A stretch of 34,982 bases of DNA from a virus. Made by a program: the position numbers and the translations under genes. Under the pieces are notes generated by a model that was not told the origin of the DNA, did no database searches, and worked only from the letters and a program-made list of their open reading frames with translations. The first letter of the stretch is position 1, and every line of letters starts with the position of its first letter. Below are positions 1,003 through 20,163 of the stretch, piece after piece. The stretch is from positions 1 to 34,982 of the IMG/VR virus record IMGVR_UViG_3300033571_026741; one strand, given 5' to 3'.

Positions 1003-4000
1003 ATGGCAGAAGAAGACATCATATCCAGTAAAATAGACCAATTATTGGGTGCAGATTTTGAGCAGCTAACTACAGAACAAATTCTGCAAACTATCACTGG
1101 AGGTCAAGTAACCATTCCATATGACGATCTTCAATCTGAAGAGGGATTTGAAAAGGAGCTTCAACAAACACAAAAAAAGGTTGACGAGCTTGTCAAAAGT
1201 TTAGAGCCTCAACCTCCTCCAATTCCAATTGAGAAAATAGAAGAGCTGGCTTGTAACTTTGAGGGAGATGCTCTTTATGCACAAATTCTTTTGGAAAGTG
1301 TACGCACAACAAATCCTTCCCTTTTTGCTGAATTAAGAGATTCTAATGCTTTACATGATAGAACACTAACACCTTCTGATCTAGGAATATCTAGTGCTAT
1401 TCCCTCTCTAAAAGATGACAGTAAACTCAGTTCCGCAGGAATTGTAGATTTTTTGAATGACAAAGATCCATCATTTTTAGAACAAACAAACGAGAGAATT
1501 TTCGACAACCTTGATCCTCTTCTGGTTGGAAAACCTTCAAATTCAGGTGCTAGGAAAAAAAGAGATTTGAGTGTCCTGGGATTTAACATGCCTCTCGAAT
1601 TCATCATGTCGGGCAAAACAATAGCACACGTTAAAATATCAGGACCCAAGATTTCAAACCAAGAAGCACTAGATAAGATTAATGAAACCTTGAAATTACA
1701 ATATCAAAACAGTAAACCTTGTGATTTTAAGGATCTAGATTTGGTTTCCCAGGATGATGAGGAGAATGTAGGGAACACAACTTCAAGAAGAGTTGATGAC
1801 TACGACTCTAACTTTTTCCCAGAAGGAGATGATCCTGTGCTAGATCAAGATTGTGCTCCTGGTCTGCCAGAAGACCCAATAACTGGTGATGTCATAGCAA
1901 CGAAATCAAATTTTGATGACATTCAGGATGAATTTTGTGATCCCCCTGCATATGATTTCTCTGGCCTTAATCCAGATGAACCAGAACCAGAAGCTCCTGA
2001 AATAGATGTCGACGCTATTGATGCTTGTATAGGTTCAGCACTAGACAAAGCCAACAAAATTGACGAGAAAAACAAACTTCTCGGAAGATGGTCAATGATT
2101 GAAAGGAACCTAGAAGAGGTTCTCTACCATTATGAAATCATTTGGGAGTTTCAAAAGAATTTCGCATTAACCTGGGTAAACAAAGTTCCCTTCAGAGGTT
2201 CTGGGGATCCTACTTCTCCCCAAGCTGTTATACAAGCATTGACTCTAAATGACCAAGCTAAAGAACTAGATGGTGAAATTGCACAAACGGTGGAGTCATT
2301 TAAAGTTGACAAGAAGATTTTTCTTGATAACAACCAAACTTTTACTCAAAATCTTTTCAACCTGACTGTAATAGATCTTGAACAAATAGAATCTTTTACC
2401 CAACAGGAAGCCTACACATACATAAGAGAAATCAACGCATCAGGCAATTCATTTCTTCGCTTTGATGAACAAATTGGTGATTGGAGAGTTGCAGAAGGAT
2501 ACACTGCCTTAATAGACAATCTTCCCGCAATTAGAGAGATCTTGATTAAAGGAAATTTCATTGACGTTCTTAGACTTCAGAAACAAGAGATTATTGCTCA
2601 AAGAGACCAAAACTTGAATTATCTTGGTGATCTCAAAGGAAAAACAATCACCATCAATAACCTCCAACAGTCTTTAGAAACTGGATTGACCTTCGACCTA
2701 TACAATTACGAGTTCGAGAGAGTATTCCAAAATGTTCCTGTCCCCTCTGGATATGATTCATATGGATGGGAATTTATAGACACACTAAAAGACTTTTCTG
2801 CTAGATTTACTGGAACGAATTTAGAAGTCAATTTTTCCCAGTTGAATTTCGAAGTGACCTTCATGAACAATCTTGGTCAGCCTTTACCATACAAGACTGT
2901 CCAGAAGCCTGGGAAGATTTCCCTTAAAAGTTCTGGGGATGGAGGATTGAAAGATATCCTTGAACCGGATGTTGAAAAAATCAAGCTAGGAAATGAATTC
3001 GCCAGTAACGGGGGTCTTTTGTCCAACTATCCTAAGAGCATTTTGAATAGCTCAAGATTTTTATCCATCACAAATCTAAATGACACACAAAATGACATAG
3101 CAGATTTCTATGATTTCGTAGAGAAAGTTATCGATACCAATCAAAGCAAGTCACAAATAATCAATGATATAGTTGACGATAGAGGCGTCCTGTATGGGCA
3201 ACTAATAGAAAAATCTGGCTCTAACTGGCTTTTCTTTAGTCCTGAAGAAAGAGGAGACAACGACGCTAGAAACCCATCCAAACTTAGACCATCGAGTTTC
3301 ACTCCAGAGGGGGAGCCTAATCCGGTCTTCACTGAATTCTATGGCAATTTCAAACCAAAATGGGATGCAAAATACCAACTTAACAAAACCCTTTTTGTTG
3401 ACCCTTTAATACAAAGATTAAAGGCAGAAGCTAGAAGAGCAGCAGAGGGAGCAGCACAAACTGCTTTTGTATCTGATTTCATTGCTGCACGTGTTTTTGG
3501 CAACTACTTCGAGATGAAGAATAAGATGGAGCAGATAGAGCAAATCATTCTCTTCGTCGCTGAAAAAAGGCAAGAAATGGAGGAATCTCTCCAGCCTGCA
3601 GCAGTTGAAAAAGAATTCTCTGACATCAAGTGTGCGGCAGATGTTCCAGCTCCTACAGACCAAAACGACCCAGAAAATTGTCCTCCCCCATGTTGTGGTG
3701 AAGCGGGTTCCGATTTCAAATCAGGAGGGAACTTCTTATTATCTTCCCCCCCAAGCTCAGATTGTCCAACGATATTTCAAAGGTGTTGGTGGAAGCAGTT
3801 TTGTAGAGATGTCACTAAAGTTGGATTGCTTCCTTATCCTAATGGTTTGCCTCCAATCGAAAAAACATCTTACTTTTTATCTCCTGGTCCTTCAGTGAGA
3901 CTTGGATTGAAGTACTGGCCTGTTGGTTATTTACCCCCTGCCTTTATCCCAATTCCTGTTCCAAATCCAATAGATGGACTTCCCTACATCCGAATTCCTC

Positions 4001-6111
4001 TTCCGATGATTTGGACAATTATTCCACCCATCGTAATTCCTTTGCCTTTCAATTTGGGAATCCTTGTCATCTTTATTCCCTTAATCGGTGGCTTCATGCC
4101 AACCCCTTTAGTTTACTTGAAAGAGTTTATCACTGGGAGCTCATTGTTTCTTACTGGCATAAGAGGTCCAAGATTTATTCCTAGAAAGTCAGATCCAACT
4201 TTGAAGGATCCTCTGGAGAAAATCAAACAAGCTCTTTCATTTGGAATTCCTGACAAACTTATTCCCTTACCTGGCTTTGGTAAGGATAATATCGACGCTA
4301 TTCCTCGTATTCTCACGGACATCCAACAGAACTTTACTAAAATTTTAGATAATATTCCAGAGCCAGGAGATATAGACATTCTTAGAGAAGTTCAGGGACA
4401 AGAACTTGGGATCAAGGAGCAAATTTTGTCACAACAGAAAGAATTTGACAAAGTCGCTGCTCTTTTAGACGAACCCTTGCCTAATTTTGATAGTCAAAAA
4501 ACACAGTTAAATCAGTTGGTTGCTCAAAGAAAGTCCGCCCTAAAACAGGTGATTCGAGACTACCTCAATAAAGGGATACCCAATCCTAAAACGATTTATT
4601 TTCCAAAAGAAAAAGATAGTTTGAAAGTTGACATTCCAGGAATCATTAAAGCTCTTAGAATTTTGAAAGAGTTGAAGGCAAGTCTTGTACCTATAACCTG
4701 TGGTGGTGATATCAACTTCAAAGACGAAATCAGAGAGGTTCTTAAACTAATTAAGATACCAACCTCACCAATTTACATCCTTGATAATTTTGGTGTATCT
4801 AATCCAAATAAGATCTTTTATAGAAACACAAAGGATCCAAGATTGATGACTGATGATGAGTTCAGCGATCTTGTGAAAGAAATCAAAGCCACATCATTGA
4901 TAATAACTCACATTCTTTTGAAAGGAAATAAATTTTCTGTAATAAAGAAAGTTAGAAAGGGTGCATTCTCAATAATAGACGGATGTGAGCTGCAAGGAGA
5001 CTTTGCTTTTCCACCTGTTAAATTGACTAATGCGGCACCAAGTCCACTCAAGTTTCTGAAAGTTCCTAACCCCATCCTAACAGCGATGTACCTAAGAATA
5101 ATGGAGGGAATGTCAAGAGCAACTTATACCCCAGAAGACTTTTCAAGATATGTCAGATATAATGGGGAAAATCCTCTATTGGTCATAAGAGTTAAAGACC
5201 TCAAAAAATTAATCTCAAAAAAACTTGGACTTAGTAGAAGAGGACCGTTTGATCCAGAGAGACCTTTGGATAGAGAGGAACCCCAAATTTCTAAGTTTCC
5301 CCATCCTGAAGGTCCCCTTTGTTGTCTTGAGTCCTTGAATGGATCTTTTGGAAAAGCCATAGCTGCATTTGAATTACCAACAGTGTTCCCACCAAAATCT
5401 GACCAGATCACGCAATCTCAAGGAGCAGGTGGCATAATTCAAATCACAATTCCTGGAGCTATCATTAAGAATTTTGCAGTCGACTTGATCACTAGAAATC
5501 TGGATCGACTGATCGATGACATCTTTCCAGAAATTGGAGATATAAATTCTCCAAAATTCATAAACTTGCAACCTGGGGACATCCAGAAAATGGCAAGGAC
5601 GATGTTGAGAGGAACGTTTGATCCTGAATCACCAAATCTGCCAGATTTCCTTAAGGCTGCTCAGATCCCTATAATTCCCGCCAGACCGACTGACTTGGTT
5701 GAACAGGCTCTTATCGGTCTTGGAGCTCCCCCACCCGCGCGAATCGTCTATTCTCTTTTTTGGAAGTATTATAAGGGACTTCCAAAAACCCCTTTGCTGG
5801 AAAAAATATCAAGACCTCCAATCGACTTGGCCGCAAAGATCCTTCCCAAAATACCTTGGCCCTTAACTGTACTTCTGGGAAGAAATTTGATCAACCTCAT
5901 CAATCCAATTGCGATGTCTGATGACCATCCTGCTTGGAGAAGAATGAGCCTTAAAAACACGTATTATGTGATTTACATCGATGAATTTTTAAGGAGTGCT
6001 GCAGATGTTTCCGGTTTGTTCAAGTTCTTCCTAGGCTCGGCCGATCCTGTTTATCCAGTACCAGAATTGCCAAGTGAGCTTCAGAAAGCATTTAACATCA
6101 AAAAATATTGA
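1003..6111 (+). CDS. Very large virion protein, unknown family (1702 aa)
   Basis: I do not recognise the family. The protein is acidic and helical in its first ~600 residues, with coiled-coil-like stretches around 365-400 and 530-565. A further helical stretch follows at about 800-875. Residues 877-934 hold seven cysteines, including PPPCC and RCWWKQFC. Residues 977-1038 are strikingly Pro-rich and then hydrophobic (IPIPVPNP, then IWTIIPPIVIPLPFNLGILV). A further helical region (about 1125-1190) is followed by a Pro-rich C-terminal part. It starts 6 nt after the gp5-like spike gene, so it is probably a baseplate, hub or tail component. A membrane-active role for the hydrophobic belt is speculation. 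There is no sign of frameshift or truncation. Alternatives are a tape-measure-like or giant hub protein. Confidence 0.75.
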   Translation: MAEEDIISSKIDQLLGADFEQLTTEQILQTITGGQVTIPYDDLQSEEGFEKELQQTQKKVDELVKSLEPQPPPIPIEKIEELACNFEGDALYAQILLESVRTTNPSLFAELRDSNALHDRTLTPSDLGISSAIPSLKDDSKLSSAGIVDFLNDKDPSFLEQTNERIFDNLDPLLVGKPSNSGARKKRDLSVLGFNMPLEFIMSGKTIAHVKISGPKISNQEALDKINETLKLQYQNSKPCDFKDLDLVSQDDEENVGNTTSRRVDDYDSNFFPEGDDPVLDQDCAPGLPEDPITGDVIATKSNFDDIQDEFCDPPAYDFSGLNPDEPEPEAPEIDVDAIDACIGSALDKANKIDEKNKLLGRWSMIERNLEEVLYHYEIIWEFQKNFALTWVNKVPFRGSGDPTSPQAVIQALTLNDQAKELDGEIAQTVESFKVDKKIFLDNNQTFTQNLFNLTVIDLEQIESFTQQEAYTYIREINASGNSFLRFDEQIGDWRVAEGYTALIDNLPAIREILIKGNFIDVLRLQKQEIIAQRDQNLNYLGDLKGKTITINNLQQSLETGLTFDLYNYEFERVFQNVPVPSGYDSYGWEFIDTLKDFSARFTGTNLEVNFSQLNFEVTFMNNLGQPLPYKTVQKPGKISLKSSGDGGLKDILEPDVEKIKLGNEFASNGGLLSNYPKSILNSSRFLSITNLNDTQNDIADFYDFVEKVIDTNQSKSQIINDIVDDRGVLYGQLIEKSGSNWLFFSPEERGDNDARNPSKLRPSSFTPEGEPNPVFTEFYGNFKPKWDAKYQLNKTLFVDPLIQRLKAEARRAAEGAAQTAFVSDFIAARVFGNYFEMKNKMEQIEQIILFVAEKRQEMEESLQPAAVEKEFSDIKCAADVPAPTDQNDPENCPPPCCGEAGSDFKSGGNFLLSSPPSSDCPTIFQRCWWKQFCRDVTKVGLLPYPNGLPPIEKTSYFLSPGPSVRLGLKYWPVGYLPPAFIPIPVPNPIDGLPYIRIPLPMIWTIIPPIVIPLPFNLGILVIFIPLIGGFMPTPLVYLKEFITGSSLFLTGIRGPRFIPRKSDPTLKDPLEKIKQALSFGIPDKLIPLPGFGKDNIDAIPRILTDIQQNFTKILDNIPEPGDIDILREVQGQELGIKEQILSQQKEFDKVAALLDEPLPNFDSQKTQLNQLVAQRKSALKQVIRDYLNKGIPNPKTIYFPKEKDSLKVDIPGIIKALRILKELKASLVPITCGGDINFKDEIREVLKLIKIPTSPIYILDNFGVSNPNKIFYRNTKDPRLMTDDEFSDLVKEIKATSLIITHILLKGNKFSVIKKVRKGAFSIIDGCELQGDFAFPPVKLTNAAPSPLKFLKVPNPILTAMYLRIMEGMSRATYTPEDFSRYVRYNGENPLLVIRVKDLKKLISKKLGLSRRGPFDPERPLDREEPQISKFPHPEGPLCCLESLNGSFGKAIAAFELPTVFPPKSDQITQSQGAGGIIQITIPGAIIKNFAVDLITRNLDRLIDDIFPEIGDINSPKFINLQPGDIQKMARTMLRGTFDPESPNLPDFLKAAQIPIIPARPTDLVEQALIGLGAPPPARIVYSLFWKYYKGLPKTPLLEKISRPPIDLAAKILPKIPWPLTVLLGRNLINLINPIAMSDDHPAWRRMSLKNTYYVIYIDEFLRSAADVSGLFKFFLGSADPVYPVPELPSELQKAFNIKKY

Positions 6112-6179: not shown

Positions 6180-7292
6180 ATGAAAAGTAACAGGTATTCC
6201 TACTTTGATTACGAAGTGGGTGAAAGAGAAACACTAGAAAAAAAATACTCTCAATATTTTCCAGAAGAAACCAGTAACAATTGGGCAGGAAAAGACTTAA
6301 CTGACAATAGTTCTGTTAGAGTTAGAATCTCTCAATTCGATAACAAAACTGGACTTGCTTTGGGTGAAACTTCGTTTGGACAAACTATTGTCATTGACAC
6401 AAACAAAGAGGAGAAGAACCTACGAAAATTAGGATATCCCTCGATCGAGATGTCTAGAGGAGATGTCTTAGAAGTGGTCGTACATAAAGATTCTTCTGGT
6501 AATTTCAATGGTTCAGTTTCGGCAGGATATGAAAAATCATTGAAACAAGAACTCCATAAATCTATTGTAAAAGATGATTGTGCTTACAAAGTCAAAGTGA
6601 AGTCAGTTTGTAATGGTGGATTCATGGTTGATCTCTCGGGAATTGAATGTTTCCTGCCAGGAAGTTTAGCCGCTGCAAACCGCATCATCAATTTCGCTGA
6701 TTATGTAGGCAAAGAAATCAACGTTATGGTAGAGGTTTATGACCAAAAAAGAGAAATATTCGTCGTGTCTTTCAAAAAATATTTGAAGAAAATCATCGAT
6801 TCAGAGGTTCAGAATCTGTCTTTCGCAAATCAATATGAGGGGATCGTAACTGGTTCTTCAAACACTGGAGTTTTTGTTGAATGGAATAGTATCTTTACTG
6901 GGATCATTCCTTTCGATGAGAAGGCCAAGGAATCTTTGGACAATTTGAAACCTGGTGATCTGGTAAACTTCTATGTGATCGACATCAAAAATCCCCAAAG
7001 AGTGGCTCTTTCGATGACTGAGCCAAATCAAAAACTTAAAAATATACAGGATTTAAAAGATTCTTCCCTTGAAGTATTAGGTGACTCATCAAATCCGAAA
7101 AGCTTCAAGGGAGAGGTTACCAAAACAAAAACATTTGGGGTCTTTGTAAAATTAGAAAATGGCCTAGTGGGACTGGTTGAAAAAGAAAAACTTTCGAATC
7201 CTATTAAAGAATACCAAGTAGGTCAAGTGATAAATTGTACTGTTTTGAGTGTCGACTCAGCTACGATGAAAGTCCAACTTTCACAGATTTAA
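6180..7292 (+). CDS. S1-domain RNA-binding protein (three S1/OB repeats), ribosomal protein S1-like
   Basis: Three S1 RNA-binding domains are visible. Domain 1 is about 134-204 (YKVKVKSVCNGGFMVDLSGIECFLPGS). Domain 2 is about 219-282 (YEGIVTGSSNTGVFVEW, then TGIIPF, LKPGDLVNFYVIDI, RVALSM). Domain 3 is about 309-370 (FKGEVTKTKTFGVFVKL, GLVGLV, YQVGQVINCTVLSV). The pattern of G-V-F-V strands, G-[LI]-[IV] and a closing 'G..v...V..vd' is diagnostic. The first ~125 residues look like a further degenerate OB-like module. Ribosomal S1 recruits mRNA, especially U/A-rich leaders, to the 30S subunit; bacterial S1 usually has four to six repeats, so this is a short relative. It sits alone between the 1702-aa gene and a strong terminator, with an A-rich leader. 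The role could be favouring phage mRNA in translation or RNA protection. Domains are near certain; the function is inferred. Confidence 0.9.
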   Translation: MKSNRYSYFDYEVGERETLEKKYSQYFPEETSNNWAGKDLTDNSSVRVRISQFDNKTGLALGETSFGQTIVIDTNKEEKNLRKLGYPSIEMSRGDVLEVVVHKDSSGNFNGSVSAGYEKSLKQELHKSIVKDDCAYKVKVKSVCNGGFMVDLSGIECFLPGSLAAANRIINFADYVGKEINVMVEVYDQKREIFVVSFKKYLKKIIDSEVQNLSFANQYEGIVTGSSNTGVFVEWNSIFTGIIPFDEKAKESLDNLKPGDLVNFYVIDIKNPQRVALSMTEPNQKLKNIQDLKDSSLEVLGDSSNPKSFKGEVTKTKTFGVFVKLENGLVGLVEKEKLSNPIKEYQVGQVINCTVLSVDSATMKVQLSQI

Positions 7293-9651: not shown

Positions 9652-9984
9652 ATGGGACAACAACTTATTAAAGAAGTCAAATCTTCTAAAATTTTAAATG
9701 GCTATCACACTATAGTGAAGTGGTCAAAAATATTTATTGAACCATTCAAGGTTATTGCCTCATTTCTTTTTTTCTGGGCCCTTTTTGAGACTTTCCTACT
9801 AGGTGATCCTACTAAATTATGTTTAGGTCTAAATGTAGCAATTTGGATTCCTGGATTTTTGTTTGCGATTGTTTTTCTGATTTTTCACTTTTTAACTGGA
9901 ATCAAACTAAGAAAAATGAGTATTAAGTATAACAGGAGTCAAACTGACATTCAAAAGGACGTTGACTCTATTCTAAACACGTAA
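9652..9984 (+). CDS. Small two-helix membrane protein, unknown function
   Basis: The 110-residue protein has two clear hydrophobic helices, about 34-51 (VIASFLFFWALFETFLL) and 59-82 (LNVAIWIPGFLFAIVFLIFHFL), joined by a short loop. The Lys-rich N-terminal segment and the charged C-terminal tail (KLRKMSIKYNR) suggest both ends are cytoplasmic. The layout would fit a class II holin, but no lysis gene is adjacent and the hydrolase lies 23 kb away. It is followed 5 nt later by the YegP-like gene, so the two form a small unit between structural genes. Function is not assigned. Confidence 0.65.
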   Translation: MGQQLIKEVKSSKILNGYHTIVKWSKIFIEPFKVIASFLFFWALFETFLLGDPTKLCLGLNVAIWIPGFLFAIVFLIFHFLTGIKLRKMSIKYNRSQTDIQKDVDSILNT

Positions 9985-9989
9985 ATAGA

Positions 9990-10346
9990 ATGATAGATTT
10001 TTTAACAAGCATTTTTTATAAAGGCAAATATGAAATTGCCATAAATAGAGTGGGAGAACATTATTTCAGATTGAAAGCTTCTAATGGTGAAATAATCCTG
10101 TCCTCTGAATCCTACAAAACTTTGCAGGGGTGTGAGAACGGAATCGCATCAGTCAGAGAAAATTGCATTGATGAATCAAACTTCGACGTTAGAGTATCCA
10201 AGGACAGAAAAAGATATTTTGTTTTGAAAGCTCAGAATGGGGAGACTATAGGGAAAAGTGAAACCTACAACTCTTTAGCCAACACCATAAATGGAATAAA
10301 TTCTGTCAAAAGATTTGGACAAACACAAGAGGTGGTCTTCCTCTGA
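9990..10346 (+). CDS. YegP/UPF0339 (DUF1508) family protein, two tandem repeats
   Basis: Two copies of the DUF1508 module are plain. Residues 14-56 carry YFRLKASNGEIILSSESY and GIASVR; residues 65-107 carry YFVLKAQNGETIGKSETY and GINSVK. E. coli YegP has the same two-repeat design with closely similar motifs and almost the same length, so family membership is confident. The biochemical role of the family is not established. The gene starts 5 nt after the membrane-protein gene with no promoter between. A fresh ATATATA element follows before the gp25-like gene, so the pair looks like cargo inserted in the late cluster. Confidence 0.93.
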   Translation: MIDFLTSIFYKGKYEIAINRVGEHYFRLKASNGEIILSSESYKTLQGCENGIASVRENCIDESNFDVRVSKDRKRYFVLKAQNGETIGKSETYNSLANTINGINSVKRFGQTQEVVFL

Positions 10347-10407: not shown

Positions 10408-10779
10408 ATGGCAAGATATTCAGAAATCTATCCTAGGAATCCTGACGATCCTAATTACAAAGTTGGACAAATGCACACTGACGATGAGGTTGAGATCCTA
10501 ATCGGGATGATAAAACAATGCATGTTGACTGCTCCGGGGGAGGTGCTTGGTGATCCATATTTTGGTATAGACTTAGAATCTCTTCTATTCGATTTTGAGG
10601 TTGATCAAACCACGCTCGAAAGAGCAATTAGACTGCACCTTGTAACCTATGTTCCTTTGGCGGGAACAAAATATGATGTGGACTTCAAGGTGGGATTTTT
10701 CAAGGGTGAGGTTAGAGATGCTTGTGTGATTGACTTTGCCATTAGGGGAAACCCAATTTTAGGCATCAAAATAATTTAA
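10408..10779 (+). CDS. Baseplate wedge protein, T4 gp25 / P2 gpW-like
   Basis: The 123-residue protein has the gp25/GpW layout: an N-terminal helix (DDEVEILIGMIKQCML), then residues 40-63 LTAPGEVLGDPYFGIDLESLLF, corresponding to the family's 'tRpGeR..rPdfG..l...lFe' core, then a helix (DQTTLERAIRLHLVTYVP) and closing strands. It is a small bacterial-lysozyme-unrelated wedge subunit that joins the sheath to the gp6 ring. The gp6-like gene starts 1 nt after its stop, the standard W-J order. Length is normal for the family. Confidence 0.88.
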   Translation: MARYSEIYPRNPDDPNYKVGQMHTDDEVEILIGMIKQCMLTAPGEVLGDPYFGIDLESLLFDFEVDQTTLERAIRLHLVTYVPLAGTKYDVDFKVGFFKGEVRDACVIDFAIRGNPILGIKII

Positions 10780-10780
10780 G

Positions 10781-12478
10781 ATGGATTTACTACAAAAGAA
10801 CAAAGCTAAAATATCAGACCTAATTAGTCAAACCTTTGATTTGATACAAGCAAGGTACTCGATGAGCAACCAATTGTTTACTGTTGCTTCTGTTTGGGGA
10901 CAAATTATTTTTGTTCTTGACAATCTTTCACAATTTATTCTCTACTTCATTGAGGATTCAATCACAGAATTAAACATCAATCAAGCCACACGTGAATCAT
11001 CCATTTATGGCTTGGCAACATTGGCTGGACACAATCCAACACGGGCAATTTCTGCAAAAGGTGAAGTTGTCATAACATGGAACGGTAAGGGATTTGAAAA
11101 TGTTGGAGGTGGTGCGATTTTGATTCCTAACAACAGCGAGATTCAGTGTGTCAACAACGGTAAAACTTACCTCATTAAACTAGCCCAAGAATACATCAGA
11201 TTGAATTTAGATCCTGGAGCAAAAATAATTGCTTCTATTGTAGAGGGAACAATTAGAACCAATCAATATACAGGCGACGGGTTGAAGCTCCAAAGTTACA
11301 ACATCTCTTCAAGGGGTACCTCAGGAATAGAAAATTTCGAGGTGTCTGTCAAGGTGAATGGGGAAGAATGGAGAAAGTACGATTCTCTCTACGACATTCC
11401 TCGTAACGCAAGAGGTTTTCTAGTAAAGAGTTCGTTAATTTCCGGAATAGATATTTTCTTTGGTACAAATGACTTTGGATTTCCTCCAGCTGAAGGCTCA
11501 ATTATTCAAGTAGAATACCTCGAATCTACTGGTTCGTTTGGGAACCTTCTAGTTGATGATGCAAGACAAGCACTTTTTAGATTCAATTCTGATGGAACAG
11601 ATCTTTTTGGCAGAACCCTAACTCTTCAAGACTATTTACAGGTGACTTGTTCGATCGCTCCACAACTTGGTGCCAATCAAGAATCAGTCGATTTGACTAG
11701 ATTAATTGCTCCGAAAACTTCGAGAAGTTTCGTGCTTGCTAATCCAACAAACTACATCACCTTCTTTGAAAAATTTGGTCAATTCTCCATCATCGAAGCT
11801 TTCACAACTTTTGATGATGAATACCTTGATGATGACAATATCATCTATTTAATTCTTGTTCCAGACATATCTTTGACTTTGAAATCAAATGAAACATATT
11901 TTGATGTTCCCTTATCGAGATTCAAATTGACAAAGACCCAAATCGACAGGATTTATCAACTACTAGATGAGAGCGGTCAAAAAATCGTAACAACGGTTGT
12001 TAAGGTTTTAGATCCTATCCTTGTAAGATTTGTGATTAATATCGCGATCACAATATTCGAAGGCAAAGATCCGGACACAATCAAAGCAGAGATAGTAAGT
12101 AAAATGAGTGACTACTTCCTAAATATTAGAAGAAGGGACAAAATTCCAAGGTCAGACTTGATTGCGACAATCGAGGGAATTGATGGGATAGATTCAGTTT
12201 CTTTGTATTTTGTTGGAGAACAAAATGAGGCAGCTAAGACACAAGATGCAAAAGCTCCAGAAATAGGATTCGATGAATTTGGTGACATAGTTATTGGCAA
12301 AGACCAAGTGGTAGTGATTTCTGGGGGCTGGGAAGATAGAAATGGAATTTTCTATGATCTTGGAGCCAGTATGCAAACTCTTTCTTCTGTAAACATAGAC
12401 GTCAGAGCCATTGTCCCAATGACCTATAATACAAGGGTCAATACCATTCTGAAGAACTCTTTAAAAACAAACAATTAA
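10781..12478 (+). CDS. Baseplate wedge protein, T4 gp6 / P2 gpJ-like
   Basis: Residues about 71-130 (ESSIYGLATLAGHNPTRAISAKGEVVITW, read in parts) fit the N-terminal baseplate-J region, where a helix and a 'G..a..g..p..a.a..G.v.ft' strand occur in gp6/gpJ. A beta-rich middle follows (FEVSVKVNGEEWRKYDSLYDI; FGTNDFGFPPAEGSIIQVEYLE). Residues about 420-500 hold the 'ik..i...l..yf' and 'RRRDKIPRSDLIATIEGIDGIDSV' helices typical of the family's C-terminal part. The role is the wedge ring that holds the baseplate together and transmits contraction. It sits between gp25-like (1-nt gap) and an 82-aa gene (1-nt gap). Length is close to T4 gp6. Confidence 0.85.
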   Translation: MDLLQKNKAKISDLISQTFDLIQARYSMSNQLFTVASVWGQIIFVLDNLSQFILYFIEDSITELNINQATRESSIYGLATLAGHNPTRAISAKGEVVITWNGKGFENVGGGAILIPNNSEIQCVNNGKTYLIKLAQEYIRLNLDPGAKIIASIVEGTIRTNQYTGDGLKLQSYNISSRGTSGIENFEVSVKVNGEEWRKYDSLYDIPRNARGFLVKSSLISGIDIFFGTNDFGFPPAEGSIIQVEYLESTGSFGNLLVDDARQALFRFNSDGTDLFGRTLTLQDYLQVTCSIAPQLGANQESVDLTRLIAPKTSRSFVLANPTNYITFFEKFGQFSIIEAFTTFDDEYLDDDNIIYLILVPDISLTLKSNETYFDVPLSRFKLTKTQIDRIYQLLDESGQKIVTTVVKVLDPILVRFVINIAITIFEGKDPDTIKAEIVSKMSDYFLNIRRRDKIPRSDLIATIEGIDGIDSVSLYFVGEQNEAAKTQDAKAPEIGFDEFGDIVIGKDQVVVISGGWEDRNGIFYDLGASMQTLSSVNIDVRAIVPMTYNTRVNTILKNSLKTNN

Positions 12479-12479
12479 T

Positions 12480-12728
12480 ATGACCCATAAGAAAAGTTGG
12501 TACGAGTTCATCAGGGAACAAAATGATGTAAGATCCAATGTTGGATTTGATTATGAGGGGAAGATATTTGAAAAAACACTCTCGAACCAAATCTTGGCAG
12601 GGGACGAAAACAGAACTCTAATTCTTGCTAGTTTAGAAAGAATAGTTCACCAATTGTTTGAGTCTACTAAATACATCAAGAACTATATAAATTATACGGT
12701 TCCAAAAAATAACAAGTACGTAAGATAG
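12480..12728 (+). CDS. Small protein in the baseplate operon, unknown (82 aa)
   Basis: This hydrophilic, mostly helical protein (WYEFIREQNDVRSNVGFDYEG; LASLERIVHQLFESTKYIKNY) is packed with 1-nt gaps on each side between the gp6-like and the 2253-aa genes. That tight spacing supports it as a real gene and as a baseplate accessory or chaperone. No family is recognised. Confidence 0.7.
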   Translation: MTHKKSWYEFIREQNDVRSNVGFDYEGKIFEKTLSNQILAGDENRTLILASLERIVHQLFESTKYIKNYINYTVPKNNKYVR

Positions 12729-12729
12729 G

Positions 12730-15700
12730 ATGACAACTCAGAATCTTTTATTTTTCAATAAAAAGGGGGAACAATACAATTTCAAATGGAACGGCACATA
12801 TTGGGAAGGATCAGTCCTCTTCGGAATAGTTTCTGAGAAACTCTTTGAGATAGAACACATCTTTGTTATTGAAAAATTTCTCAACAACGTGGGTGATGTT
12901 CTTTATGGATTTCCCCATAGTTATGGGGTGAGTCCAGGTTTGCCAGTTTGGAGAACAAGATGGGAATCTGATTTCGATCAAAAAATCAATGTTTCTTCAA
13001 TCATCTACACTTACGATCTTGGAATTGATCCAGAGTTGGACGCTCCTTTTCTTGTTAAAGCACAGAACGTAGAATTCTACCCAGAGGTAGTCCCAGGAGA
13101 CACAATCAGTTCCCCGGAAGGATTGGTGGTAACAACTGATGTCACGTCATCCTCAATGCAAATCAATATAGCATTGAATTCAGATTCTGAGGGTGTCTAT
13201 GATAGAACTTTAATTTTGGAGGATTACACCGATCCTAACAATCCTGTTAAAATTCTTCAAGTTAATTTCCATGGTGAGGTGGAGGGCGAAGATTCAAGAC
13301 TCTCAGTTCTTCTTGATAACTTTGGACGATCTTTCATTCAATCAGATTCTTTCATTTCAAGAGATACAGATATCAAAGAACCCTTTCCCAATTTCGAAAT
13401 CATCAACAAAAAAAGAAAGGAGCTTTTGTTAACAGGCGAAAGTATTTTTCCTTATTTAGGTTCCTACAAATCTTTGTTCAATGCTATTCGTTTCTTTGGA
13501 TATTATGATCTTAGGATTAAGGAGTATTGGTTGAATGTAAAGATTGACTCAGCCGATGTTTTAACACCCCTACAACAAAATTCACAAATACTAAGACAAT
13601 TAGCAAAGCCAAATCTTCAAGGACAAAATTCTTTGGAGCTAATTAGTAGTTTGCTCCAAGATGAAAACAAAGGAAAGTTTAAACACGTTGAAATTTATGG
13701 CAAACGTAAAGACGGAAGCTTTGGTCTAAAAAAACAATTCGAAGAGGTTTTCCCATCCAAGTCTTACAAGAAGACTTCTTTGTTTGGACTTTTCTATGAT
13801 ATCAATCGTGTTGTAGAGGATCAAGAAGAAGACATTTACGGCTATCCCGTTGTGGAAGATGCTTTCATGTTCAGTCCGGAGGAAGTTCTCCTAAAGCTCT
13901 TTGGATTGAAAGAGAGATTGAAGAGAGACTATCTACCACTCAATGCTAGAATAGTCGATATCACTGGTGAAGGCGTTTATTTCAATATCTACAAAACCAG
14001 AGGTTGGGTTGATCAACTAGGAATAGATGAGGTCCAAACAGGGATCACTGTTGATTTCAATGTTTTTCCAAACAATGGTTACATCGAGGATTTAAGACCA
14101 TTCTATCTCAAGCCCAATCAAGATTCGTTGTTATATCCTGCAGTTAATGGTCCTGAGCCTGGACTAAGCTATTATGGGAACACAATAGAACCCTATTCTT
14201 CATTTCAACAATATCCTATTTCCAAGATCCCTTCGCTTACAGAATCCATCCGTAAGTTTTACACAGATATAGAAACCGGTGCAATGCCTAAGTTCCTTGG
14301 TGATGGTGATTTCGATCCCCCTGGATATAAACTTTTTGCAACTGGTGAGGATTATGTTTTTCCTGCAGGTTGTCCCATCATAATCAACAATGACACTTTT
14401 GATTTAGCATGGGATGAAATCAACGCTGTTTGGGACAATTTAGGCTCAACCATCACAACTGATTTGTTCGATGTTGCAAGTTACACGAGTACTTTGGCTC
14501 CTAACCCTGGAACACCTTTACAATCGGTAACAAGTTCTACAAATTTCACTTTAGATGGATCCTTACCACAAACTGCAAATTTCAACATTGGACTAGGAAA
14601 CACTTGGTTCAACCCAGTTGGAGCTGAGGTTATCTTTGTAAGAATCGAATCTCAATCATCCCCTGGAAATTTGGTTCTAGGCTATTGCATAGACACTGAC
14701 TATAATCCTGCTACTGGAAATTTAATCGTCCAGGTCATCTCAGTGAGAGGCGGGGGAACTTATTCTGATTGGAAAGTGTCTCCAACCAACATTAGGAAGG
14801 ATACCTATGAATACACATATTTCTTAAACTATGTGCAATCTGGTGGTTTCTACTCATGGGATAGGTTGCCATTTCTAGATTTCTATGAAATTGAGTGGAC
14901 TATTTATAAAAATGATGATAGACCATACTATTTCCAAATTAGAGGTAATCTCCCGGATCTAGAAACTCTCCCACATTTCCTTCCATACACAGGGGATTAC
15001 AACATCCAATGTCGTGTATGGGACACCTTAAATTCTATTTCTTTAGGAATTAAAAGAAGCATCGTCAAGGTTGAAAAAAGACAAATTGAACTCAACACAA
15101 TCACAAGATTTAGAGAATCCGAGAAATATGATTGGAACAACATGCCTCTCAAATGGGAAAGCTATCCTTCTCAATGGATTTGGCCAGTTGAAAGCACAGA
15201 CATTGTGAACAACATCTCGGACTTTATTGCAAACTTTCCTGAATACTCTAACAACTTCAATGAGGGACAAACCTGCGAGGTACTAAGTAAAGTTCCAGAG
15301 GTCAAGGCCTTGACAACATTTGACGCTTATGCAACATCGATTTCAATAGTCGACATTCAAAGCCTATTTGTTGGTGGGGGATACTCTTTTGCTGTGGTCA
15401 CAACATCTACGCCCCATGGTTTCTCTTCTGGAGGCACAGTTTGGATAAAAGACACTCCCAACCCAGGAGATTTCTATGGGCAGTTTCCTATCACCGTTCT
15501 TTCACCAACAACTTTTGAGATCCCCCAAATAGAACTAGTTCCTATTCTTGGTGGCATCGTCTTTGGAGATGGAACAATCAAAGTTATAGCTGATGGAATC
15601 GAAATCGCGAGTTCTCTTTTTCTAGGAGATCTTTCAACAACATTGGCTTCTGTTTATAGCCAAATAAATAACTCCTCATTAGATCCTAAATATAAAATCA

Positions 15701-18700
15701 TAAGTCTGGTTGATTCAATAGTGCCTGGCAGCAAGACATTCACTGTTCAAGCACCAAACAATAAAGGAGATTCTTGGAATGGGAAGATTCTTCAGGTTCA
15801 AACTACAGGATGTTTAACTGGCACACCGGCTAGTAACATATTTACTGGTGGTGCCAATGAGTATGAGGCATATTTGCCTTATGACTTTAACACTCCTCCC
15901 AATCCCGTCATGAAATATTGGGGAACGAAGAAGTTGTGTTGGGACACTTTTGAGGACTTTGAGTTCGCTAAAGCGTATGCCCACACTTGGGACATGTACG
16001 ACTATCACAATGATTGGCTAGGAGGATTTGATCTCTACTCTCTCCAATATGGTGATAGGGTAAGGGTTTCTTCACAAACTAATGGGATCGTATTCCATGA
16101 GACATCATCTCCAGGTAACAACTATCTTGGACTTTGGGAAGCTGCAGAACAATTGAACACTTCCACTGATGAAAATATTAGAAGATTTGACTATGAGGTA
16201 AGAGGTTTCTCTAAACTTCCTAATAATTTCTATCCCAGCTCAAATCCGATTTCTCCTGAACTAGAGACTGATGTAGGTCCCCAAAATTTCACAACCACTT
16301 TCTTTCAAAGTCCCAAGCTTGTTCCTTTTACAGGAATAGGATTCGATGGGAATGGTGATATTTGGCTGACCGGAGAGGATCTAATGAAATTTGATGGTGC
16401 AACTTTCACTGTTTTTGATTCATCAAATAGTATCATGCCAGCTCCAGGCACCTTGACCAACTGCATTAAGATAGACAAGAATGATAATCTTTGGATTGGA
16501 GTGGAACAATCGACAACTCCTTTGATCAAAATAGATCAAAAAGATTCCACACAAAGTGTTGTCTTTGATGCTAATGATTTTGTGGATAACCAAGGCAATC
16601 CGGTTCTCCCAGGATCAATCGGTTCTGTTTACGATATAGAAATAAACTCACGGAATGGTGATATTTTTCTTTCTTACATACAACCGTTTTCACCACTAGA
16701 ACAAGGGTTCTTATATTACGATGGAGCGGCCCATTCTTGGAAATTCTTTGATAGCACCAATTCAAATTTGCCACAAGGATTAATTTCTGATCTGAAATTA
16801 GAATATGTGTCCATCAACAAATGGTACCTTTGGATTGGTACACCTGATGGATTGTCTAGATTCGATGGGGTTGATTTTAAAAATTACACGACCACCAATT
16901 CTGGACTTCCAAACAACGACATCAAAACAATTACCATCGACAAATTGGGACACAAATGGATTGGGTGCAACCAAGCTCTAGTTTATTGGGACAACACAAG
17001 ATGGAAAGTATGGAACGCAACAAACACTCCAGCTGTTTCTTCTGTAGCTGCCTTTTATGAAAATTTAGATTCTGGAAATTCTAACATTTGGTCATTTGGA
17101 AAAGGCCCAGATTCTCTTTGGAGTTTCGATGGATACAATTTCAAAGAATTTCTCTACAGAAATGATGGAATAACTCCCATCCAGCCCAATGTTGGTACAA
17201 GTGGAAATTTGCTGCTTATAGCTCCTTGGAAAGTAATCAAGGAGGGATTCACAATTTATCCAAAAAATCTTATTTATGGAACGATTCTAGGGGAGTTGGC
17301 CATAAGTGACTACGTCATTCCTCACATCCACGCAACATCTACTACTCCTGGAATAAATGGATGGGATTTCGTTTATCATGAAACATCAGTTCCTTTACCT
17401 CCAATTAATTATCTCTACAATGCTGAGATTGGAGCTACAACACTTGGATTCAACTTCATAATTGGACCTTTAAATGACAACTTAACTCTAGATTCCGATT
17501 ATACAAGACCATCCATGGCTCATGTTGACAGATATTCTTGGTACAAACCTATTTGGCAAAGGTACCAGATAAATTATCTCAAGGACCAGTTTCCATATCT
17601 TGACCTTGATGATGTTTTCTTATATGCTCCTTTAAGGGACATTCTAAACGGAAAGGCAACAAAAGAAAGCTATTGGAGAAACCCAATCATAGAAAGAATC
17701 GCCAATAAAAAGTCGAGAGAGTTATTTCAAAATTTTGAGTGGATCATTGCTCTAGGAAATTCTAATCCTGGTATGGGCATTAAAATCACGGTAGACAATG
17801 AAGGAAACAATATAGTTGTTGGTAACTTCGAGGGACTATTATTCATGGGTGCTGTGAATAATGTCGCAGCTCAAGATGTTTTCTTGAACACAACACAGCC
17901 AAATGTTTTTGTGGCCAAATACAACCAAGGAGGAGTTCTTCAGTGGGCAACTTCGACAGCTCCATCTCCTTCTTTGGGTGAAGTTGCTGCTAGCTTAACC
18001 ACTGATCAATATGGTAACATATATGTTGTTACAAACACATTAACCACTTCATTCAATTTTTATAAGTATAACTATTCTGGAGACCTGGTCAACTCAAATA
18101 CGATCACATCCACCAATCTTGAAATAACTGATATCAAAGCCGACAAGTACGAGGCACTCTACATAAGTGGTGGATTTATAGGCTCATTAGTACTGGGACC
18201 AGTCACACTAACAAATCCCGGTGCAAACCAAATTGGCTATATTGTTAAGCTTGATTCACAATTGGATGCTGTGTGGGGAAAGAGTATTGGAGACGGAACC
18301 TACGCAAACAAGGTTACAAGCATTTCTTTGCTCGGAGAGGAGTTCGTTTATTCGACAGGAACGTTCGACACTCTAGCGGACTTTGGAAATGGAGTACAAC
18401 TTCCTGGATTGGGAGCGCCTGATGCTTTCATTTACAAACAAGATGTAGCTAATGGAAATTCAATTTGGGCGAAGTCTCTTGCCAAAGATGCTCTAACTTC
18501 TTTTACAAATTCCACTCTATCCTTAGATCCAAAAGGACACATTCTTGTAGCTGGTTCATTTGATGGCACGATCACCTTAGAAGGCAAGGATCTCTCATCC
18601 TTCACAGGAACAACAGACATCTTCGTCATCAAGTTGACACCAACAGGAAAACTAATTTGGATGAAGATGTGTGGAGGCAATGCCGGAGACTATGCTTATG

Positions 18701-19491
18701 ATGTGAAGTCTGACTCTGATGAGGATGTTTATGTTATCGGATCATTCACTGGTTTAGCTTACTTTTCACCAGAAGAACAAAATTCAAGAGGTGGGAAGGA
18801 CATCTATCTGGTAAAATTCAACAAGTCTGGATTGTTAGTTGATGTGGTAACTGCAGGAGGAAATCTGGAGGATGAGGGTCTGAGTTTGGTGTTAGACGTT
18901 GAGGAAAACATCTACATCACTGGTTACTTCGAGGGTAATGCAGACTTTTCCCCATGGGTGGTAGCTTCTCCTCCGGGGGGAAACAATATGAATGCTTTTA
19001 TTGGCAAAATTCCAAAGCAGAGATTTCATCCAGGTTTATCAATAGGAGGTGTGCAATCTTGGCTTGGTTCACATTCTTGGTCTTGGAGGGAGGAGATATT
19101 CTATAAGGAAGAGTTTGAAATTCCTTTAGCCTCAACAATCTTCATCAATCCAATTGACTCTTTGATTCCTGGTAAGAAGGAGCATTTGTGGACACTAACT
19201 GATACGGAGACAGGTGCTGTTATAGCGAAGATAAGAAAGACCCCTTATTTCATCTGGACATTTACTAATCCAGGTTTTTACAGCGTAGAATGCTCGCTAC
19301 AAGACGCAAATGGAAATCTATATGAAACACAACACAAGGGGAAAATACGGGTTATAGATCACAAGACGCCTTTTGCGGGAGATTTAATTCCAGATATAGT
19401 TAATCCAGAAGACTATTTGATAAGGTCAATCTACTACGACAGAAAAGTCCTGGGCTTTCCTCCTTTGAATCCTTTCGAGGTGACTGATTAG
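12730..19491 (+). CDS. Giant baseplate-associated protein with two kinds of beta-propeller (2253 aa)
   Basis: It occupies the slot after gp6 where a gp7/gpI-type wedge subunit is expected. Residues about 235-280 (SIFPYLGSYKSLFNAIRFFGYY) suggest the baseplate-attachment end. Beta-sandwich segments follow: an Ig/PKD-like stretch near 718-781, and a 'TTSTPHGFSSGGTVWIKD' module near 889-935. Residues about 1195-1480 hold repeated 'GNGDIWLTGEDLMKFDGATF', 'NDNLWIGV' and 'LWIGTPDGLSRFDGVDFKNY' units, like two-component-regulator propeller (Reg_prop) blades. Residues about 1668-2090 hold SBBP-type blades ('DIFVIKLTPTGKLIWMK', 'DEDVYVIGSFTG', 'ENIYITGYFEG'). Residues about 2126-2214 resemble a PKD domain (LWTLTDTETG, GFYSVECSLQDANG). 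Propellers of these types bind glycans or partners in Bacteroidota sensors and surface proteins, so receptor binding is the likely role. Its TAG stop abuts the PhoH-like gene's stop with no gap. Wedge identity is inferred from position. Confidence 0.75.
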   Translation: MTTQNLLFFNKKGEQYNFKWNGTYWEGSVLFGIVSEKLFEIEHIFVIEKFLNNVGDVLYGFPHSYGVSPGLPVWRTRWESDFDQKINVSSIIYTYDLGIDPELDAPFLVKAQNVEFYPEVVPGDTISSPEGLVVTTDVTSSSMQINIALNSDSEGVYDRTLILEDYTDPNNPVKILQVNFHGEVEGEDSRLSVLLDNFGRSFIQSDSFISRDTDIKEPFPNFEIINKKRKELLLTGESIFPYLGSYKSLFNAIRFFGYYDLRIKEYWLNVKIDSADVLTPLQQNSQILRQLAKPNLQGQNSLELISSLLQDENKGKFKHVEIYGKRKDGSFGLKKQFEEVFPSKSYKKTSLFGLFYDINRVVEDQEEDIYGYPVVEDAFMFSPEEVLLKLFGLKERLKRDYLPLNARIVDITGEGVYFNIYKTRGWVDQLGIDEVQTGITVDFNVFPNNGYIEDLRPFYLKPNQDSLLYPAVNGPEPGLSYYGNTIEPYSSFQQYPISKIPSLTESIRKFYTDIETGAMPKFLGDGDFDPPGYKLFATGEDYVFPAGCPIIINNDTFDLAWDEINAVWDNLGSTITTDLFDVASYTSTLAPNPGTPLQSVTSSTNFTLDGSLPQTANFNIGLGNTWFNPVGAEVIFVRIESQSSPGNLVLGYCIDTDYNPATGNLIVQVISVRGGGTYSDWKVSPTNIRKDTYEYTYFLNYVQSGGFYSWDRLPFLDFYEIEWTIYKNDDRPYYFQIRGNLPDLETLPHFLPYTGDYNIQCRVWDTLNSISLGIKRSIVKVEKRQIELNTITRFRESEKYDWNNMPLKWESYPSQWIWPVESTDIVNNISDFIANFPEYSNNFNEGQTCEVLSKVPEVKALTTFDAYATSISIVDIQSLFVGGGYSFAVVTTSTPHGFSSGGTVWIKDTPNPGDFYGQFPITVLSPTTFEIPQIELVPILGGIVFGDGTIKVIADGIEIASSLFLGDLSTTLASVYSQINNSSLDPKYKIISLVDSIVPGSKTFTVQAPNNKGDSWNGKILQVQTTGCLTGTPASNIFTGGANEYEAYLPYDFNTPPNPVMKYWGTKKLCWDTFEDFEFAKAYAHTWDMYDYHNDWLGGFDLYSLQYGDRVRVSSQTNGIVFHETSSPGNNYLGLWEAAEQLNTSTDENIRRFDYEVRGFSKLPNNFYPSSNPISPELETDVGPQNFTTTFFQSPKLVPFTGIGFDGNGDIWLTGEDLMKFDGATFTVFDSSNSIMPAPGTLTNCIKIDKNDNLWIGVEQSTTPLIKIDQKDSTQSVVFDANDFVDNQGNPVLPGSIGSVYDIEINSRNGDIFLSYIQPFSPLEQGFLYYDGAAHSWKFFDSTNSNLPQGLISDLKLEYVSINKWYLWIGTPDGLSRFDGVDFKNYTTTNSGLPNNDIKTITIDKLGHKWIGCNQALVYWDNTRWKVWNATNTPAVSSVAAFYENLDSGNSNIWSFGKGPDSLWSFDGYNFKEFLYRNDGITPIQPNVGTSGNLLLIAPWKVIKEGFTIYPKNLIYGTILGELAISDYVIPHIHATSTTPGINGWDFVYHETSVPLPPINYLYNAEIGATTLGFNFIIGPLNDNLTLDSDYTRPSMAHVDRYSWYKPIWQRYQINYLKDQFPYLDLDDVFLYAPLRDILNGKATKESYWRNPIIERIANKKSRELFQNFEWIIALGNSNPGMGIKITVDNEGNNIVVGNFEGLLFMGAVNNVAAQDVFLNTTQPNVFVAKYNQGGVLQWATSTAPSPSLGEVAASLTTDQYGNIYVVTNTLTTSFNFYKYNYSGDLVNSNTITSTNLEITDIKADKYEALYISGGFIGSLVLGPVTLTNPGANQIGYIVKLDSQLDAVWGKSIGDGTYANKVTSISLLGEEFVYSTGTFDTLADFGNGVQLPGLGAPDAFIYKQDVANGNSIWAKSLAKDALTSFTNSTLSLDPKGHILVAGSFDGTITLEGKDLSSFTGTTDIFVIKLTPTGKLIWMKMCGGNAGDYAYDVKSDSDEDVYVIGSFTGLAYFSPEEQNSRGGKDIYLVKFNKSGLLVDVVTAGGNLEDEGLSLVLDVEENIYITGYFEGNADFSPWVVASPPGGNNMNAFIGKIPKQRFHPGLSIGGVQSWLGSHSWSWREEIFYKEEFEIPLASTIFINPIDSLIPGKKEHLWTLTDTETGAVIAKIRKTPYFIWTFTNPGFYSVECSLQDANGNLYETQHKGKIRVIDHKTPFAGDLIPDIVNPEDYLIRSIYYDRKVLGFPPLNPFEVTD

Positions 19492-20163
19492 TCAAGTGGT
19501 GTATTCCCTGTAAACGTCCAAAATTGAAGGCACGATAGGGTGTCTGTGATTTTGTTTTAGTGAGATAACCTTTACTCCTTCGACTCTTGCTGCAAGAGTG
19601 TTCATGAAATCCAGTCCAGACTCCTTTTTGTTCTTCAAATCTATCTGGGAAGTGTCTCCGCAAATAATCATTTTCGAACCAATCCCTAGGCGTCCCAAAA
19701 CCATTTCCATTTGTCCCATTGTAACGTTTTGGGCCTCGTCAACAACCACACATGAGTTTGTTAATGTCCTTCCTCTCATGAAGGCAAAGGGAAGTATTTC
19801 GATAATGCCGTCAGTCAAAAGCTTTTCAATTTTTGGCTTATCATAGAGCATTTCAAGATTTGAATAAATGGGTGCTAACCACGGATCCATTTTTTCTTTT
19901 AAGTCCCCAGGAAGCCAACCAATATCTTCCTTTGCTACTGTTGGTCTGGTGATAACCACCTTTTCTATCTCCCTTGTGAACAATAGATCTAGTGCAATTT
20001 GAACTGCCAATAAGGTTTTTCCTGATCCAGCTGCTCCTTTTAACACATTCACGTGATTCTCAAGGATGATTCTTTTGGCCTCTTTTTGCTCCTCATTCAA
20101 AGTCATCTTAAACTTGATGGGATTTTTAGGCTTTCTCTTTTGAGTCCAATTGTTTTCTGACAT
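19492..20163 (-). CDS. phoH: PhoH-like P-loop ATPase
   Basis: The 223-residue protein has the PhoH core in order: N-terminal QKEAKRIILENHVNVLKG, Walker A GAAGSGKT (43-50), the family motif GWLPGD (82-87), DPWLAPIYSNL, FMRGRTL, Walker B VVVDEAQN (139-146), and MIICGDTSQIDL with the C-terminal LKQNHRHP. PhoH proteins are ATPases linked to RNA metabolism and phosphate stress; the exact reaction is unsettled, and many marine and large phages carry one. It is the only minus-strand gene. Its stop TGA (19492-19494 on the plus strand) directly abuts the stop of the 2253-aa gene. The ATG at 20163 is followed upstream by a 112-nt region shared with the divergent fibre gene. No minus-strand promoter is obvious there. 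Confidence 0.95.
   Translation of the reverse strand: MSENNWTQKRKPKNPIKFKMTLNEEQKEAKRIILENHVNVLKGAAGSGKTLLAVQIALDLLFTREIEKVVITRPTVAKEDIGWLPGDLKEKMDPWLAPIYSNLEMLYDKPKIEKLLTDGIIEILPFAFMRGRTLTNSCVVVDEAQNVTMGQMEMVLGRLGIGSKMIICGDTSQIDLKNKKESGLDFMNTLAARVEGVKVISLKQNHRHPIVPSILDVYREYTT

Follow-up and report, generated by a model that had tools for sequence, protein, structure and literature searches.

The locus and its gene complement

The stretch of DNA analyzed here (hereafter, the window) is a 34,982-base IMG/VR virus record, which probably comes from a large phage that infects Bacteroidota; the moraphages (PMC12619734) are a possible home for its clade. The window contains an intact open reading frame with an ATG start (12730-19491, plus strand) that encodes a protein of 2253 aa, delineated by both the reading frame and the orthologues. 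On the same strand, this gene is preceded, in this order, by a gp25/gpW-like baseplate gene (10408-10779), recognized through a weak match (PHROG 261, E 0.0035, with the Pfam family GPW_gp25 under its cut-off); a baseplate wedge gene of the gp6/gpJ, or BaseplateJ, type (10781-12478; PHROG 219, 'baseplate wedge subunit', E 7.5e-27); and a gene for an 82-aa protein (12480-12728) that is kept in the clade and whose slot is occupied by one or more small genes in several named relatives. The sequence-only reading of this DNA had placed the large gene directly after gp6, in the slot of the next wedge protein; the slot past gp6 stands, but the 82-aa gene intervenes. Downstream of the large gene lie several large fibre-type genes, encoding 1160-aa, 1878-aa and collagen-containing proteins, which are themselves conserved.

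Several other genes of the window merit brief mention. The last fibre-type gene (33327-34982, plus strand), which has a collagen-like segment close to its beginning, is truncated by the window end and shows 57-64% identity in most of the relatives compared. In the records L078 (G003:C1:38921-44379) and L079 (G008:C1:37491-43048), stops or shifts of frame apparently interrupt the downstream gene for the 1878-aa protein, which may reflect assembly errors. Adjoining the 3' end of the 2253-codon gene, on the opposite strand and within the tail cluster, is a PhoH-like gene (19492-20163, minus strand; PHROG 170, E 1.2e-64) that is present in 29 relatives. The tail-gene region also encodes a 370-aa protein (6180-7292, plus strand), found in the loci of 47 relatives, in which three stretches match S1 RNA-binding domains (PF00575, E 8.5e-23). 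Two small genes precede gp25 (9652-10346, plus strand) and are shared, among the fetched relatives, by L016 only; one of these matches the functionally unannotated PHROG 1422 (E 5e-21). A gene for a 1702-aa protein (1003-6111, plus strand) matches no family and, with about 59% identity to many relatives over a partial alignment, is more variable than the gene of interest.

Domain organization of the 2253-residue protein

The most conspicuous feature of the protein is the pair of predicted seven-bladed propellers in its C-terminal half, both encoded on the plus strand, as are all the regions described below. The first, of the Reg_prop/HTCS type (residues 1185-1540; 16282-17349), is supported by Pfam, profile comparison, structural modeling, Foldseek and internal repeats, and the second, of the SBBP/CylK type (residues 1665-2095; 17722-19014), by Pfam matches of orthologues, profile comparison, modeling and repeats. 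Alignment and model place between them a partly helical linker (residues 1541-1664; 17350-17721). Reg_prop (PF07494) scores 22.6 bits in the window protein, against a Pfam cut-off of 20.4, and is also above the cut-off in L036 and L057. The Pfam scan of the window protein alone yielded no above-cut-off match to SBBP (PF06739; cut-off 20.5), which is exceeded in the orthologues L002 (22.7) and L036 (21.9). A profile of residues 1060-2253 constructed from 19 sequences matched CylK (7fh8; 4.1e-22) over the second propeller, the HTCS protein BT4663 (4a2l; 1.8e-20), with the strongest stretch in the first propeller, and 3v9f (7.2e-13).

AlphaFold2 modeled two propellers, at residues ~1185-1537 (model residues 126-478, with seven repeats) and ~1671-2069, with most blades at pLDDT 75-92; flanks and linkers bring down the overall confidence of this model, which is low (64.5). 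The top 20 Foldseek matches of the model in the PDB are exclusively HTCS-type extracellular domains or CylK (E 1e-19 to 1e-18), with an identity to the HTCS structures of ~11-13%. Repeat motifs number seven per propeller, and alignment of each propeller half against the other half gave scores of 77 and 100, each versus a maximum of 65 among 300 shuffles; the same procedure applied to the core region described below detected no internal repeat signal (31 versus a maximum of 58). Taken jointly, the sequence profiles and the model confirm two separate predicted propellers of seven repeats each, at residues ~1185-1540 and ~1665-2095. The claim of Reg_prop-like and SBBP-like propellers, made from the sequence alone with the blade count left to fold prediction, is thereby borne out for both.

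The rest of the protein is less readily classified. A beta-rich N-terminal region (residues 1-180; 12730-13269), seen in the alignment and the model, begins with ~50 residues that are conserved even among the huge phages of 635-642 kb. This region overlaps the conserved core (residues 145-461; 13162-14112), which is common to 18 divergent phages and bears the gpI-like motif KRKELLL...PYLGSYKSLFNAIRFFGYYDLRIKEYW at residues ~228-267. Farther along are a conserved domain with a PKD-like pattern (residues 706-790; 14845-15099), identified from the alignment and lacking a Pfam match; one or more variable beta domains (residues 861-1045; 15310-15864), confidently modeled with no clear fold match; and, past the propellers, a C-terminal PKD-like domain (residues 2096-2253; 19015-19488) that also occurs in relatives lacking the propellers. 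The PKD-like domains announced by the sequence-only reading find weak, sub-threshold support in the orthologues but were not detected in the window protein. The model of the N-terminal half (pLDDT 46.8) is too poor for a meaningful Foldseek search.

The resemblance of the propeller region to the sensor domains of Bacteroidota hybrid two-component systems (BT4663, BT3049 and BT4673) consists in the tandem arrangement of propellers, the first of which is of the Reg_prop type. However, the second propeller of the window protein belongs to the SBBP/CylK type and the pair is fused to a phage baseplate core; moreover, no Pfam match to kinase, receiver or AraC-type output domains was found in this protein, nor is a signal peptide or membrane span evident (maximum 19-residue hydropathy 1.66, N-terminal 1.46). 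The SBBP-type propeller of CylK is similar to the second propeller in both profile (E 4e-22) and Foldseek (1.9e-18) comparisons, whereas the N-terminal part of CylK has no counterpart in the window protein. Reg_prop propellers had been taken as a mark of HTCS glycan sensors; HTCS domains are indeed the top structural matches, but the next one after HTCS and CylK is PorZ, a type IX secretion component located at the surface. Because such propellers also occur outside HTCS, their presence alone does not imply glycan sensing. Two 'phage' matches to the propellers, MT838419 and MT836126, were excluded as phage relatives; L015 is bacterial, with SusC/D-type genes beside an HTCS, and L014 looks bacterial as well.

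Probable wedge identity and distribution among phages

The core (residues 145-460) is shared with the Flavobacterium phage MaF61, the Chryseobacterium phages MA9V-1/2, the Tenacibaculum phages PTm1/5, the Lak phages of Prevotella, PAU and uncultured phages of 462-735 kb. Each of the 18 cores in the alignment matches PHROG 28177, a family with unannotated function, and a search of NCBIfam with the core gave no match. The order gp25, gp6, small gene(s), slot protein is also found in the Chryseobacterium phage MA9V-2, PAU, LR756500 and the Tenacibaculum phage PTm1, with gp6 identified by size and position in the first three and by annotation in PTm1, in which the large gene preceding the slot protein is annotated as a baseplate wedge subunit. 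MaF61 differs, with a sliding clamp and a neck gene as the neighbors of the slot protein.

The same order is seen in P2, where W (gp25) and J (gp6) precede I. When the core profile was compared using hhalign with a profile built from seven gpI proteins, the two aligned over 47 columns, exactly over the KGT motif, with a score of 25.9 (E 0.008, probability 5%); none of the 300 column shuffles scored as high (the best reached 18.1), and the reversed profile scored 14.5. The aligned patterns are KRKElLl..I.pyiGsYK.LiNaI.fFGY.DL.iKEYW in the core and KR..ik.a..Ihr.kGT..Av...l..lG..i.i.EWfe in gpI, the shared motif being KR...I..kGT/GsYk..L..lGy..i.i.EWw. Unlike the window protein, gpI of P2 is only 176 aa long and has no propellers, and PF09684 (Tail_P2_I) was not hit in the nine relatives tested at E<=10. 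No sequence similarity to T4 gp7 was found (hhalign probability 0.2%, E 0.32), nor did the N-terminal half and the core match solved baseplate chains or any other PDB chain. Given the profile match over the KGT motif and the W-J-I gene order, the window protein is likely a baseplate wedge component with a gpI-like role, an assignment based on position and weak homology. The baseplate location proposed from the sequence alone likewise appears likely, given the conservation of this protein after gp25-gp6 in several phages.

A scan of viral contigs recovered 52 loci. In all 31 full-length orthologues, the protein is ~2250 aa long and contains both propellers in register, with gaps amounting to ~1.5%; no domain swapping was seen among these proteins. 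Other relatives have a different organization. The distant relatives L062, L064, L065 and LR756500 encode proteins of 998-1146 aa that combine the core with the C-terminal PKD-like region and are devoid of propellers, as is L003, so that the propellers are inessential to the slot. In L057 (9572-19591), the core gene (1386 aa) terminates just ahead of the propeller position and is followed by genes for a 764-aa PKD protein and then for a 1179-aa protein that consists of the Reg_prop propeller, a region at the position of the second propeller and the C-terminal domain. Because the propeller-less relatives retain the C-terminal domain together with the core, this difference is more likely due to a split in L057 than to a fusion arising late in the clade of the window. 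The core gene of L057 additionally contains an insertion near residues 22-150.

Different modules occupy this slot protein elsewhere. In L011, the core is immediately followed by a CBM_5_12 domain that exceeds the cut-off (26.5 bits); the corresponding match in L009 is under the cut-off. In these two loci (L009, 7642-13374; L011, 7624-13299) and in L010 (7678-13011), all from huge phages of 635-642 kb, ~1400 residues with no convincing Pfam family separate the first ~50 residues from the core. In PAU, the slot protein gp21 (L006, 9665-12520) carries yet another module, a C-terminal DUF5977 (E 1.3e-19). A relative with 47% identity is encoded on L096, a contig assigned to a Bacillota MAG that probably represents phage DNA binned in error.

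Evolution and possible function of the propellers

The propellers are less conserved than the core, with a mean pairwise identity of 0.65 versus 0.81-0.85. For close pairs, dN/dS is 0.055-0.058 in the propellers, 0.015 in the core and 0.039 in gp6; with synonymous differences near 0.5 per site, these ratios are approximate, and all three are under purifying selection. Trees built from residues 1-860 and from the propellers both unite the window, L016 and L048 (support at least 95/95). In these three members, the end branches are 0.72, 0.39 and 0.57 for the propellers versus 0.13, 0.05 and 0.12 for the core, that is, the propellers evolved ~5-8 times faster than the core, whereas the ratio is ~0.7-2.4 in most other members. 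The window and its sister L016 differ most over residues ~1701-1900, where identity is 39-40% compared to 79-94% over the first 500 residues. This lineage-specific acceleration is expected for an exposed recognition surface or a changed recognition partner, but also under relaxed constraint.

The weak correlation between propeller and core distances would suggest recombination of the propellers between phages, as would the SBBP part of L016, which resembles that of other members more closely than that of the window. Such recombination is made less likely by the fact that both trees join the window, L016 and L048; exchange of smaller propeller parts is possible. Because the architecture is fixed in 31/31 full-length orthologues and the core and propeller trees agree, the propellers seem to have been inherited vertically for a long time within the window's clade. 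The same observations argue strongly against their recent capture, and the capture of host-type modules invoked by the sequence-only reading finds no support as a traceable event, the likeness to HTCS being one of fold and repeats. A scan of bacterial genomes used peptide patterns from outside the propellers and is uninformative with regard to the donor.

We give roughly even odds to the reading that the protein is the post-gp6 wedge protein of a large myophage of the Bacteroidota type, enlarged by two propellers that contact the host surface. Under this scenario, the slot protein would correspond to P2 gpI by position and weak homology, and occupy the slot of T4 gp7, with the propeller pair inserted between the conserved N-terminal half and the C-terminal PKD-like domain. 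The N-terminal core would seat the protein in the wedge beside gp6, and the anchored copies, at a wedge-type copy number extrapolated from gp6-type wedges generally, would arrange the propellers as a ring along the rim of the virion baseplate. Exposed outward, these would most likely contact the host surface during adsorption, alongside the separate fibres; the ligand would probably be a glycan or another cell-surface polymer, a host glycan being a guess. A role in surface recognition is in line with the fast divergence of the propellers and with the presence of CBM_5/12 at this position in other lineages. For most clade members, however, the propellers evolve at about the core rate and under strong purifying selection, unlike a hypervariable receptor-binding tip.

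The latter pattern would fit a role of the propellers as internal discs that hold fibre proteins or widen the baseplate with no host contact, which we rate as a serious contender with somewhat less than even chances. Propellers are common platforms for protein-protein interactions, the architecture and register are constant among the full-length orthologues, and the large fibre-type genes downstream are conserved. A purely structural disc is harder to reconcile with the CBM found elsewhere in the slot and with an acceleration that is confined to one lineage and concentrated in the propellers: between the window and L048, the 1878-aa protein is 71% identical and the SBBP propellers only 53%. 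That one of the propellers, with the CylK-like one as the best candidate, has an enzymatic activity that opens the host surface, for example, by cleaving or modifying a polysaccharide, appears improbable: the best sequence match, CylK, is an enzyme with an SBBP-type propeller in its structure, but the alignment is limited to the propeller repeats, the respective stretch evolves fast in the window's clade, and Pfam scans of the window protein and its orthologues gave no match to hydrolase or lyase families. Least probable is a recent acquisition from a host Bacteroidota HTCS gene with retention of glycan sensing or mimicry of glycan signaling. The best structural matches are periplasmic domains of HTCS proteins, which also have two propellers ahead of an Ig-like domain; nevertheless, only the first propeller is of the Reg_prop type, the signal peptide and the signaling domains are missing, sequence identity is low, and the propellers are old, occurring throughout the clade and, in L057, in a gene of their own.

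The search for host-recognition determinants of phages normally centers on fibres and spikes. The notion that the modules are built into the baseplate rather than placed on separate fibres agrees with the fusion in the window's clade, but in L057 the propellers are in a separate gene, and separate large fibre-type genes are kept downstream. Extending the surface-contact reading, one could imagine, as a tentative and on balance unlikely proposal, that a Bacteroidota phage lineage has made the wedge protein itself a receptor-binding device, with sensor-type propellers ringing the baseplate and the pair merged, separated (L057) or omitted. If recognition propellers are indeed part of wedge proteins, the gene following gp6 may be where huge Bacteroidota phages encode receptor-binding modules; the family, with no, fused or split propellers or a CBM, provides a natural series for the study of how binding modules enter the baseplate.

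Propellers in phage tails are already known; the window adds two within a post-gp6 wedge-slot protein. Our literature search found no paper linking Reg_prop propellers to a phage tail, and two large jumbo-phage papers make no mention of propellers; the search likewise turned up neither virion proteomics nor a structure of any member of the family. Nozzle propellers of T7 and SU10 are cited in PMC10607447. The RBP of Staphylococcus phage phi11 (PMC4901313) and the eBAP3 fibres of eCIS (PMC12923769) present a propeller at the tail tip that binds the target surface, but these are separate receptor-binding or fibre proteins. Foldseek also matched the window model to propeller proteins of the T4-like cyanophages S-PM2 (Q5GQG3, E 5e-16) and ACG-2014h (V5USF6, E 1.5e-15), in which, unlike in the window, the propellers belong to separate large proteins.
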